Source of the DNA: Chrysomallon squamiferum
Lineage: Eukaryota; Mollusca; Gastropoda; Neomphalida; Peltospiridae
DNA length: 64,000 bases
Direction: 5' to 3'
NCBI GenBank assembly: GCA_012295275.1
Contig: CM022674.1
Span: 12,779,364-12,843,363 of the forward strand
Positions 11,215 through 50,735 of the stretch are shown in pieces. Numbering within the stretch: the stretch's first letter is position 1; each line of letters begins with the position of its first letter. The notes beneath the pieces are model-generated. The model searched no databases, was not told the DNA's origin, and saw only the letters and a program-made list of their open reading frames with translations. The position numbers were made by a program, and so were the translations under genes.

Positions 11215-11831
11215 GTTATTTAGTAGGGTAGTGTTCTTATTTCAAGGTGATTCAGTGAAGTACTGTTACTATTTGAAGGTGTTTCAGTGAAGTACAATTG
11301 TTACTTCAAGGTGATTCAATGAAGTACTGTTCTGTGAAGGTGTTTCAGTGAAGTACAATTGTTACTTCAAGGCGATTCAGTGAAGTACTGTTACTATTTG
11401 AAGGTGTTTCAGTGAAGTACAATTGTTACTTCAAGATGATTCAATGAAGTACTATTATTCCAGTGTGTTTCTTTTTAAGGACTGGTGTTATATCAGAGCA
11501 ATTTATCATTGAGACTGTGTATCATATTTTCATTATTTAAGGGTGACACAATATCTGTTATTAATACTGTATAATGGGTGATATTTTATGATATTTTCAT
11601 CATTGATGGTGACATAATATCTCTTGTTAATCAGAGTGATTTGATATTGTATAATGCGTGACTTTACGTGATATTTTTGAGGTTTCAGGGTGACACAGGG
11701 TGACACAGAGTGATATATTGTTTAAGGGTGACTATATGATATTTTGATTTGCAGGGTGACACATCTGTTATATCAGTGATATATATATATTGTATAACGG
11801 GTGACTTTATTTGATATTTTTGATGTTGCAG
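11215..11831 (+). repeat. Degenerate array derived from the atrophin exon 1 acceptor
   Basis: 11240-11460 repeats GGTGATTCAGTGAAGTACT with TTACTATTT, closely like the exon start GGTGACTTAGTGGAGTACT with ACTATTT. From 11525 the motif AG|GGTGAC recurs at 11541, 11688, 11698, 11726 and 11754 before the true acceptor at 11831. Confidence 0.75.
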
Positions 11832-11967
11832 GGTGACTTAGTGGAGTACTACTATTTCTGGAAGAAGACGCCAGCAGCTGTTTCAAATCGGCCTCATCGC
11901 CGACATCGTCGCTCCGGACTCAAACGGCAGGCAGTTAGATCGTCAAACCAACCCATAGGTGACTACT
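11832..11967 (+). CDS. RERE: Atrophin exon 1 (end of SANT domain, basic linker)
   Basis: Encodes [16 protein letters not shown] followed by NRPHRRHRR, the closing helix of the atrophin SANT domain and its basic tail; known RERE has a closely similar FYYYWKKTPEAA and RAHRRHRR. It starts after GTTGCAG and ends at T|GTGAGT in phase 1, so the next exon completes a Leu codon to give the conserved LDxSSASE. The preceding SANT exon, which should end with a KET-like sequence in phase 0, is not in the window. The sequence immediately upstream is an array of degenerate copies of this acceptor (see findings). The following 4.9 kb intron is AT-rich and holds a GAT/AAT-rich stretch at 12300-12545, an A-rich stretch near 13440-13735 and an ATCC array; I see no exon in it. 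Confidence 0.93.
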
Positions 11968-48034: not shown

Positions 48035-48474
48035 TTAGTGACAAGAAATTTTCACTTTGTCTCGTTTTGTCCAAACTCTCACGAAGTTTTCAAAATACAG
48101 TTTACTATTCTGAATTTTACACGTAGCTATCAGCAGATCAGCAATCTTAACCGGGTCGACGTACATGCGCAGTCGCCTGTCTGCTGATAGCGCATCGATA
48201 ATGACGTCACTGGTCAAATAAGGCAGATCGTACACATCCATGTTGTCAAATAGTTCCCTAAAAAAAAAGTCGTTTTTCGCTGATCCCGAAGACGCGGATA
48301 CATTCCTCGTAGTTTATTTGCTTGTTAGAAACTGTCGTTAAAGCAAAAAGTAGTTTGGTGATGTCGACGTTGGCGATGAAGTCGAGTTTTGTAGCAGCGA
48401 ATATCTCGTCTGCAGTAAGAAACCCGCTGTTGTCTTCATCGATCAGTTTGAAATTTCTGCGTAATGCCATCTGT
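48035..48474 (-). CDS. EF-hand gene exon 3 (EF-hand 3 and three degenerate hands, stop) with an apparent +1-base frameshift
   Basis: Acceptor TATTACAG. The first frame encodes QMALRRNFKLIDEDNSGFLT to VFGISEKRLFF and stops at TAG (48260-48258). The shifted frame continues RELFDNMDVYDLPYLTSDVI to RVWTKRDKVKISCH and TAA at 48037-48035. A T9 run (48260-48268 as A on +) sits exactly at the switch; with T8 the frame is continuous. T9AG also resembles a 3' splice site, but no donor in the right phase exists nearby. AATAAA-type signals lie just downstream (near 48021 and 47988 on this strand). Confidence 0.83.
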
Positions 48475-50735
48475 CTGTAATAAACAAACAAACAAACAGA
48501 TTGGAAGATAGATGGATAGATACTTAGAAAGACAAACACATACACACACACACACGCGCCCATCTCCCATATATATGTGTATGTGTGTGTGTGTGTGTGT
48601 GTTGTGTGTGTGTGTATATATATATATATATATATATATATATATATATATATATAGAGAGAGAGAGAGAGAGAGAGAGAGAGAGAGAGAGAGAGAGAGA
48701 GAGAGAGAGAGAGAGAGAGAGAGAGTACATTTGCTTTTACAAAACAAACTACAAAATACAGAACAAAAAATATTAACTTTTAAAAAAATACACAGAAACT
48801 GACAGAAAGATATTAAGGCACAAATGAATAAAAAAAAAAATGGTATTATATGATTAATTTACTATCATAGGTCTGTTTTATGTCAAACATTCGTAATTCC
48901 AACATTCTTATATTCATCATAATATATGAGGATATTCTATAGGAACCTTCCAATAAATAATACATTAACAGATAGATACGTATGTTATATTATTCATTTG
49001 AGTACGTAGCCTGGTATATTATAAACTCACTTGAGTACGTTGGTTGGTATGTTATATTATTCACTTGAGTACGTAGCCTGGTATATTATAAACTCACTTG
49101 AGTACGTTGGTTGGTATGTTATATTATTCATGTTACGTAGCCTGGTATATTATAAACTCACTTGAGTATGTTGGTTGGTATGTTATATTATTCACTTGAG
49201 TACGTAGCCTGGTATATTATAAACTCACTTGAGTACGTTGGTTGGTATGTTATATTATTCACTTGAGTACGTAGCCTGGTATATTATAAACTCACTTGAG
49301 TACGTTGGTTGGTATGTTATATTATTCACTTGAGTACGTAGGTAGGTATGTTACAATACTCACTTAAGTACGTAGGCTTGTATGTTACAATACTCACTTC
49401 AGTACGCAGGTAGGTATGTTACAATACTCACTTCAGTACGTAGGCTGGTATGTTACAATACTTACTTCAGTACGTAGGCTGGTATGTTACAATACTTACT
49501 TCAGTACGTAGGCTGGTATGTTACAATACTTACTTCAGTACGTAGGCTTGTATGTTACAATACTCACTTCAGTACGCAGGTAGGTATGTTACAATACTCA
49601 CGTAAGTAACTAGGCTGGTATGTTACAATACTCACTTCAGTACGTAGGCTGGTATGTTGTAAACAGCTGATATGTATTCTGCTAGACTGACTCTTCCGTC
49701 TCCGTTTTTGTCCATCCCCGTAAAGACCATCTGAAATTGATTATCATTTTCTGAAATTACTGTTAAAAAATAGATTACTTTGGAAATACATGAACAGTAG
49801 TCTCATTCAAGCCCATTTACGAAATAAGAAAAAAAATAAGAATTTTTTTTTTAAATGAATGAATAAATAATTAATTAATTAATTAATTAAAACAAATTCT
49901 TCAAGATTAATGTATCATCATTGACAGGCAGGTAAAGTATCTTTAGATTTGTCATTTCATATTATAATAATAACAACGACAACGACTACGATAATAATAA
50001 CAGCAAAAATAACAACAACAAAAACAATAATGTAATAAATATTTTTTGCAACACTGATTGTCAAAGCACAATTAAGGAAAAGAAAAAAACGCAGAAAGAG
50101 GGAGAAAAAAAAGAAGGAAATAATCAATTTATTTTTTACTATAATCTTCTTATGGTATTTATTTTATCTTGGCTCAGTTCAATTCTAAATCCTTATTCTT
50201 TTTTTAATAGCTGCTGTCAATCAATAGTAAATATTTAATATGTGTTTTATTAGCATTTTAAAATTGTTCATTAGATAGAATTTATATAATTAACAGTAAC
50301 AATTAACTAATTAATTAATTCAGTTTATCAAGATTATCATTTCAATTCATCATCTGAAAGATTATCCTGAAAATGATCAACATGATCGTATCTTTATCAT
50401 CATTATCAACATTTATTAATTAATTAATTATTATTATTATTATTATTATTATTATTATTATTATTATTATTTTGATACTCTCGATCAAACCAGTGTACTC
50501 TTGAGATTCGAACCGCTAACCTCCGCTTCTTCATCCAAACAGCTCCATCCGCGCTTCTTTAGAACGTCCTTCACCTCGACGAATGATAAATATCCGCCAT
50601 TATTCGTGTCGGCTTCGGCAAATTCCGCTTTAAATTGTTCCAACTGGTTCTGGACCCAGATTTGCGATTCTGAAGGTGGCGGTGTATCGGCCATCTTGTA
50701 AATGTGGGTTCGGTTACTCGACTTGTATCTCCAGA
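48035..50735 (-). CDS. Six-EF-hand calcium-binding protein gene (three coding exons)
   Basis: Exons 50735-50521 (start codon 50694-50692), 49730-49636 and 48474-48035 join in matching phases into 235 residues when one base of a T9 run (48260-48268) is discounted. Six EF-hand units recur every 33-38 residues. Loops 1-3 keep the ligand pattern: DTNNGGYLSFVE (29-40), DKNGDGRVSLAE (65-76) and DEDNSGFLTADE (102-113). Units 4-6, near 136, 169 and 207, lack most acidic ligands. There is no signal peptide or membrane segment, so a cytosolic Ca2+ sensor or buffer is inferred. Six hands recall the calbindin/calretinin/secretagogin group, but length and loop usage differ, so I do not assign a family name. 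Confidence 0.85.
48574..48726. repeat. Compound (GT)n(AT)n(GA)n microsatellite in the EF-hand intron
   Basis: Three dinucleotide arrays lie back to back, about 100 bases upstream (in transcript terms) of the acceptor of EF-hand exon 3. Confidence 0.95.
48985..49663 (-). repeat. 34-bp array of exon-2-end plus donor copies in the EF-hand intron
   Basis: On the + strand the unit is TACGTAGGCTGGTATGTTAC followed by AATACTCACTTCAG. It equals the end of EF-hand exon 2 plus its GTGAGT donor. About 19 intronic copies precede the genuine one (49630-49663). The exon-distal half is a higher-order dimer (TAGCCTGGTATATTATAAAC alternating with TTGGTTGGTATGTTATATTA). Confidence 0.93.
49636..49730 (-). CDS. 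EF-hand gene exon 2 (EF-hand 2)
   Basis: Acceptor ATTTCAG, donor CTGAA|GTGAGT. Encodes MVFTGMDKNGDGRVSLAEYI and SAVYNIPAYVLK with a canonical loop (Asp1, Asn3, Asp5, Glu12). It ends in phase 2. Its last ~20 bases together with the donor form the unit of the tandem array that fills the adjoining intron. Reading past the donor gives Lys then TGA. Confidence 0.88.
49740..50520. other. EF-hand gene intron 1
   Basis: AT-rich, with (ATT)n at 50430-50472 next to the exon 1 donor. No further exon is needed, because the EF1-EF2 spacing is canonical when exons 1 and 2 are joined directly. Confidence 0.7.
50521..50735 (-). CDS. EF-hand gene exon 1 (5' UTR end, EF-hand 1)
   Basis: The coding part is 50694-50521: MADTPPPSESQIWVQNQLEQ, FKAEFAEADTNNGGYLSFVE and VKDVLKKRGWSCLDEEAE, ending in phase 0 at GAG|GTTAGC. 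The ATG is in good context (ACAAGATGG). About 41 bases of 5' UTR precede it, and a TTTTCCAG acceptor just upstream implies a further, unidentified non-coding exon. The spacing from DEEAE to the next loop equals that in calmodulin, supporting direct joining to exon 2. Confidence 0.85.

Follow-up and report, generated by a model that had tools for sequence, protein, structure and literature searches.

Tandem arrays that span exon-intron junctions recur in introns of Chrysomallon squamiferum

We analyzed a stretch of 64,000 nucleotides from the gastropod Chrysomallon squamiferum (contig CM022674.1, positions 12,779,364 to 12,843,363 of the forward strand; hereafter, the window), in which several introns carry tandem arrays whose repeated unit includes the edge of an exon and its splice signal. 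The corresponding genome comprises 404.6 Mb in 22 contigs. On the plus strand, the window contains roughly the final three quarters of an atrophin/RERE-like gene, whose exons we number E1 to E15, and on the minus strand, it contains a three-exon EF-hand gene (F1 to F3), which is 68% identical to calmodulin-4-like of the gastropod Gigantopelta aegis. Exons E1 to E15 were placed by using tblastn with homologues from Haliotis, Octopus, Patella, and Ostrea, and their splice sites and phases were checked. Pfam models match the atrophin/RERE-like gene at a GATA-type finger (PF00320, in a model of E1 to E3) and at Atrophin-1. All features are listed in Table 1.

At four junctions (the acceptor of E1 and the donors of E2, E3, and F2), the neighboring intron begins or ends with an array of copies of the junction, and the frame-compatible splice site is the terminal member of the array. 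A preliminary description, made from the letters of the window, had proposed this arrangement for two genes on opposite strands, and both nhmmer and tests of the reading frame confirm it. At the F2 donor (position 49636, minus strand), the unit of 34 nucleotides (nt) joins ~25 nt from the exon's end to the first 9 nt of the intron and is repeated head to tail; we counted 20 copies by splitting the array and 19 by nhmmer. Identity to the copy at the junction is 88-100% for the nine exon-proximal copies and 74-85% for the distal eleven. The proximal half is nearly uniform, with two adjacent variant units that recur five units further on, and the distal half has a higher-order structure, with alternating dimers that contain GTGAGT and GTGAAT.

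The other three arrays are as follows. nhmmer identified four copies of the E2 donor (16982), with 29-35 nt of the exon's end, and CAAGTAAGT is present in three of the four, including the functional copy. It also identified four copies of the E3 donor (predicted at 18600), with an exon part of ~13 nt. This donor is weak, and which GT is used is uncertain, yet the site lies within the unit. For the E1 acceptor (11832), there are three nhmmer matches with E values below 0.01 at 11559-11849, of which the weakest lacks the CAG; the exon part of these copies is just ~6-9 nt. CAG/GGTGAC (the slash marks the splice junction) occurs additionally at 11689, 11699, and 11755, and AAG/GGTGAC occurs at two more places. 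The four junctions score 53.5 (E1), 80 (E2), 76 (E3), and 110.5 (F2), while the shuffled background (one dinucleotide shuffle in 1-kb blocks) never reaches 48. When we used only exonic sequence from 18 exons as queries, we found intronic copies at E2 (3 rows of matches) and F2 (17 rows), and the sole other match was to 27 nt of E11, at 8300-8326. The arrays have the features of ordinary minisatellites: local tandem copies that diverge, with a unit of ~10-150 base pairs (bp).

Further arrays lie near junctions. As the preliminary description had stated, a fifth array, of repeated GACAG.. sequences, starts inside the E8 donor, at the fifth base of the intron. A sixth array, which the preliminary description had not mentioned, ends ~20 nt ahead of the E10 acceptor. 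This array carries TATTAAC-like motifs, and it may supply the branch-point region of the acceptor. Upstream of E1 is an array with a 32-bp unit to which the preliminary description had pointed. It aligns to the start of E1 with a local score of 40, while other sequence windows (n = 1,571) score at most 29, and its best score against 14 other exon starts is 26. However, a search with the start of E1 alone by nhmmer did not find this array, and a profile of the array did not match E1 significantly (E = 7.9). Thus, the link between this array and E1 is suggestive.

Table 1. Exons, arrays, and genes in the window (positions are those of the window)
Feature	Positions	Strand	Basis or remark
Part of atrophin/RERE-like gene within the window, E1-E15	11832..32732	+	
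E1, SANT-end exon, atrophin/RERE-like gene	11832..11967	+	tblastn, splice sites, phase; acceptor is the last of the series of acceptor copies
Copies of the E1 acceptor region upstream of E1, units of ~80-145 nt	11559..11837	+	
Seven copies of a 32-bp unit similar to the first ~35 nt of E1	11234..11453	+	link to E1 suggestive, unproven
E2, first half of GATA-type zinc finger	16884..16982	+	tblastn; PF00320
Array, four copies of E2 end and donor	16949..17157	+	CAAGTAAGT in three, including the functional copy
E3, second half of zinc finger	18398..18600	+	tblastn; weak donor, placed by phase
Four copies of the sequence around the E3 donor, unit of 58 bp	18590..18872	+	
E8	23639..23816	+	tblastn, splice sites
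Array of 42-56 bp units, starting just inside the E8 donor	23822..24559	+	
E10	25635..25750	+	tblastn, splice sites
Array of 34-bp units, ending ~20 nt before the E10 acceptor	25390..25611	+	
EF-hand gene, F1-F3	48036..50694	-	
F2, second exon of EF-hand (calmodulin-4-like) gene	49636..49730	-	
About 20 copies of a 34-bp unit (exon end and donor)	48980..49662	-	first copy is the frame-compatible donor

The direction of copying can be read where the exon edge is conserved. Using loose patterns that were made for this analysis, we found the motif at the end of E2 in 108 of the 120 atrophin homologues listed (of 543 found), the motif at the start of E1 in all 120, and MRTRR, near the end of E3, in 111. 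The end of F2 aligns to the Gigantopelta protein with conservative changes. Because the edges of E2 and F2 are conserved in homologues, comparison of sequences indicates that at these two junctions, the exon edge is the original and the copies in the intron descend from it. Copying from the exon is also likely for E1, where the copied part is short. The direction is less certain for E3, since the copied part codes for NNIT, to which the Haliotis and Patella sequences correspond only loosely.

We asked what would happen if the inner sites were used. We tested 17 of them, comprising inner donors at E2 (two), E3 (two), and F2 (ten) and the three inner CAG/GGTGAC acceptors at E1, and every one of them introduces a stop codon into the transcript. 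Among the sites tested, the reading frame is preserved by the terminal copy alone. Stops are also met by reading through the donors at two other loci described below (L021 and L048) and by reading in from two acceptors (L029 and L044). The F2 array includes 17 further donor-like sites, many of which score like or above the functional one (by a consensus donor matrix), and within the unit, the donor columns show no clear excess of conservation over the other columns (identity of 0.92 versus 0.87). The inner sites that we tested are apparently useless, as far as their predicted products indicate. The terminal copy is presumably the one that is spliced, and it would be held in place by selection, since copies on the exon side would alter the protein.

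Whether the arrays are enriched at junctions over other places depends on which null is chosen. About 8.6% of the window lies in recognizable arrays (30 pieces). By simple overlap, 4 junctions are in arrays, versus 2.0-2.6 expected (P = 0.17-0.25); the two highest cut-offs leave 3, versus 2.0-2.1 (P = 0.33-0.35). In a coarse overlap test, 4 of 21 junctions were in the top 10% (P = 0.15). We superseded this with a test of terminal membership, which fits what selection permits; its null is how often a position drawn at random falls in the terminal unit of an array. This null is fairer, as selection forbids copies on the exon side. Four of the 26 unmasked junctions are terminal members, versus 0.45-0.60 expected (P = 0.001-0.003), and the corresponding values for the two highest cut-offs are 3 versus 0.41-0.43 (P = 0.008-0.009). 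For 4 of 33 junctions, P was 0.002-0.003 by circular shift and 0.005-0.009 relative to genic introns; across the tests that count four terminal members, 0.43-0.82 were expected. The result was stable to the overlap that was required (P = 0.0009-0.002). In an exploratory comparison, 6 of 33 junctions had an array within 100 nt, versus 1.94 expected (P = 0.02). Thus, junctions in the window are favored over random positions by terminal membership (P = 0.001-0.009) but not by simple overlap (P = 0.17-0.35). The window is a discovery sample that was picked because of the pattern.

For a test sample, we turned to two protein families encoded in this genome and chose exons regardless of repeats. The myosin head family gave 81 matches, of which the best 30 loci were used. 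From 141 kinase matches, we took 40 exons in the order listed; these lack stops and have an open frame of up to 160 amino acids. We added 12 junctions from the upstream part of the atrophin/RERE-like gene. We kept 87 of the 100 possible junctions in 50 loci and 33 of 40 in 20 further loci; the cut-offs for splice scores were set after viewing the splice scores and before any repeat score was seen. Junctions outside the window were placed by domain match and splice consensus, not by RNA, so some may be wrong. L054 and L074 overlap each other, as some of the myosin loci do, with the result that certain background bases enter the count twice, and the background is slightly high because it takes in the far ends of junction-anchored arrays. 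Giving equal weights to all bases led to the same picture. L004 and L015-L018 include stretches that read as N.

Intron-side copies were found at 4-5 of the 54 myosin junctions (4 at the stricter cut-off), on four contigs; at 0-1 of the 66 kinase junctions; and at 0-1 of the 12 upstream atrophin junctions, where the one case is in low-complexity sequence. In total, 4-7 of the 132 junctions outside the window have such copies, versus 2.1-2.7 expected, which is a 1.8-2.6-fold excess with P = 0.02-0.18, depending on the cut-off and the scoring. Exon-side copies were found at 0 of all 165 junctions, while intron-side copies were found at 8-11. As examples, the copied sequence at L021 comprises the donor together with 18 nt of exon, and nine donor-like sites occur within 300 nt. 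The L029 acceptor has units of ~51-54 nt, and the L029 donor is also accompanied by copies, more weakly. At the L044 acceptor (on contig C7), ~39 nt of the start of a myosin exon are copied 126 nt upstream, after which the sequences diverge; with its two copies, this is apparently a young example. The L048 donor has a copy 143 nt downstream that includes, by eye, nearly 70 nt of the exon. A paralogous acceptor, at L030, has no such copy (score of 16). Thus, junction-spanning intronic arrays are a real and recurrent class that extends beyond this window, to myosin genes on other contigs.

We think that random local tandem duplication combined with purifying selection probably explains these arrays. 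A segment that happens to straddle or abut an exon-intron boundary would be duplicated locally, by slippage or by fill-in break repair. The duplicate on the intron side would be tolerated because the outermost (exon-proximal) copy still splices, and this copy would be held by selection on the coding sequence and on the splice site. The inner copies would drift, presumably neutrally, and the array would grow by further unequal exchange or repair. As arrays cover ~9% of the window, a few per cent of junctions would be expected to be caught in this way. We favor this explanation because the anatomy is one-sided, as selection must leave it, and because the frequency outside the window is within ~1.8-2.6-fold of expectation. 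Several results weigh against it. An intron-side array lies within 25 nt of 6 of the 33 junctions in the window, versus 0.96 expected (P = 0.0008; exploratory). Across all junctions, 8-11 of 165 with copies exceeds the expectation of 2.7-3.4 (P = 0.0008-0.0075), and both the window alone (P = 0.002-0.005) and the myosins alone (P = 0.005-0.014) show an excess. Also, a uniform process predicts the contrast between the myosins and the kinases poorly.

The excess of terminal membership in the window, in the myosins, and across all 165 junctions together is what would be expected if junctions were preferred seeds, due to transcription-linked breaks, R-loops, or sequence features of exon edges, so that introns lengthen; the arrays that abut E8 and E10 also fit. 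However, the excess outside the window is small (1.8-2.6-fold, P = 0.02-0.18), kinase and upstream atrophin junctions have next to none, simple overlap is not enriched, and the window was chosen after the fact. We consider preferred seeding to be unlikely. Its consequence, that several per cent of introns lengthen at one edge and come to hold up to 17 ignored decoys, seems equally doubtful. Of the genome-wide, junction-started process that had been proposed, the recurrence in myosins stands, but a junction-targeted process is not established. Selection that keeps redundant or decoy splice sites, as backups or as regulators (for example, by U1 recruitment or by splicing coupled to nonsense-mediated decay), was also proposed, and it could account for the 17 further donor-like sites kept at F2, several of which score as the functional one does, and for the 8 further sites at L021; repeat units of human IFI6 have been reported as splice donors (outlined in PMC4526556). 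But all 17 of the decoys that we tested at E1, E2, E3, and F2 give stops, as do those at the four loci outside the window, and the donor columns at F2 are not clearly more conserved than the rest, which makes this a very unlikely explanation.

The preliminary description spoke of introns being seeded by their own junctions, and the duplication of exonic segments that contain AGGT is a known route to new introns (as outlined in PMC3443670), so the arrays might be remnants of introns that were born by tandem genomic duplication. That model requires both edges of the intron to come from the duplicate. In the three introns we tested, the arrays are at one edge and the far edge is unmatched (40-76% of other places score as high against the unit), so these introns do not have the appearance expected from birth by duplication. 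Moreover, the arrays fill just part of the introns. Intron birth of this kind is highly improbable here. It is just as hard to credit that the copies were created by mis-joined noisy long reads. The genome may have been built from nanopore reads, and two coding exons each contain a frame change, as noisy long-read assemblies can give, but the copies differ from each other (74-100% identity to the junction copy at F2, with higher-order dimers), unit lengths vary between loci, and unrelated loci have the same anatomy. We also considered an introner-like or otherwise transposed element. A search of all 404.6 Mb with the F2 unit, in which only the best candidates were scored, gave four matches, all inside its own array, and no near-identical dispersed copies. 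With its matches confined to one locus in this search, the unit does not resemble a transposed element.

A few other features of the locus are worth recording. The atrophin/RERE-like gene has six more exons 20-34 kb upstream of the start of the window, and residues 1-158 of the Haliotis homologue had no match in that upstream region. Earlier SANT exons were not identified in the window, either by a motif scan or by tblastn with residues 1-380 of the Haliotis homologue; these exons are located upstream of it. The intron that precedes E1 is 31.6 kb long (C10:12759579-12791194), with the amplified acceptor at its very end. E9 ends at 24999. E13 (29117-29284) has a match in the oyster homologue and none in the Haliotis or Patella sequences that we used, and it is possibly an alternative exon; the intron that precedes it has only 62 nt. 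There is one frame change near 22.0 kb in E6 (20957-22241) and another near 48.27 kb in F3 (48036-48474, minus strand), with matches to homologues on both sides of each; these may be indels in the assembly or genuine variants. A 109-bp unit is present in about three copies at 10605-10919 (97% matches); they are apparently recent, and no recognized exon adjoins them. At 41850-42190 is a perfect array of 85 TGGC copies, followed by two GC-rich minisatellites up to ~43124, which is unusual for surroundings with ~30% GC.

Among known systems, the closest precedent is the human IFI6 minisatellite, whose repeat units are reported to act as splice donors, with inner units in use (PMC4526556, in outline). 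As in IFI6, the tandem units at F2, E2, and L021 contain the end of an exon and a 5' splice site. Unlike in IFI6, the first copy alone is predicted to keep the frame in the cases tested, and both donors and acceptors are involved, in several genes within a single genome, and the units are ~34-145 nt long. Zhuo and colleagues reportedly described, in 2007, introns that derive from tandem arrays. Tandem duplication as a source of introns has been reviewed (PMC3443670); as outlined there, the repeats carry splice signals and exon sequence, as ours do, but here one edge of the intron is amplified and the other is unmatched (in three introns). Internal tandem repeats at exon-intron boundaries have been described for human genes in segmental duplications (PMC2812944), where minisatellite variation at these boundaries can change gene structure. 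That account, in its outline, concerns recent paralogues with changed exons and introns, whereas the exon edge looks unchanged here. In Caenorhabditis elegans, genes that undergo multiple splicing decisions are described as having introns enriched for one minisatellite (PMC4039745, in outline). Like ordinary intronic minisatellites, the arrays have local tandem units, diverged copies, and higher-order blocks. They differ in that the founding unit holds the edge of an exon, and because this edge is conserved, at E2 and F2 at least, we know which way the copying went. Our searches of the open-licence PMC literature listed no title or opening of an abstract on recurrent junction-spanning arrays in a genome, a result that holds for these searches alone. 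The present case is set apart by its recurrence across genes, by the involvement of acceptors in addition to donors, and in that the inner sites we tested are apparently of no use.

In this genome, 8-11 of the 165 junctions carry copies of themselves in the intron if the discovery window is included, and 4-7 of 132 do without it. Where the exon edge is conserved, these arrays record the direction in which an intron has grown, which intronic repeats normally do not. They also provide natural tests of how the spliceosome chooses among near-identical and similarly strong sites that are ~34-150 nt apart.

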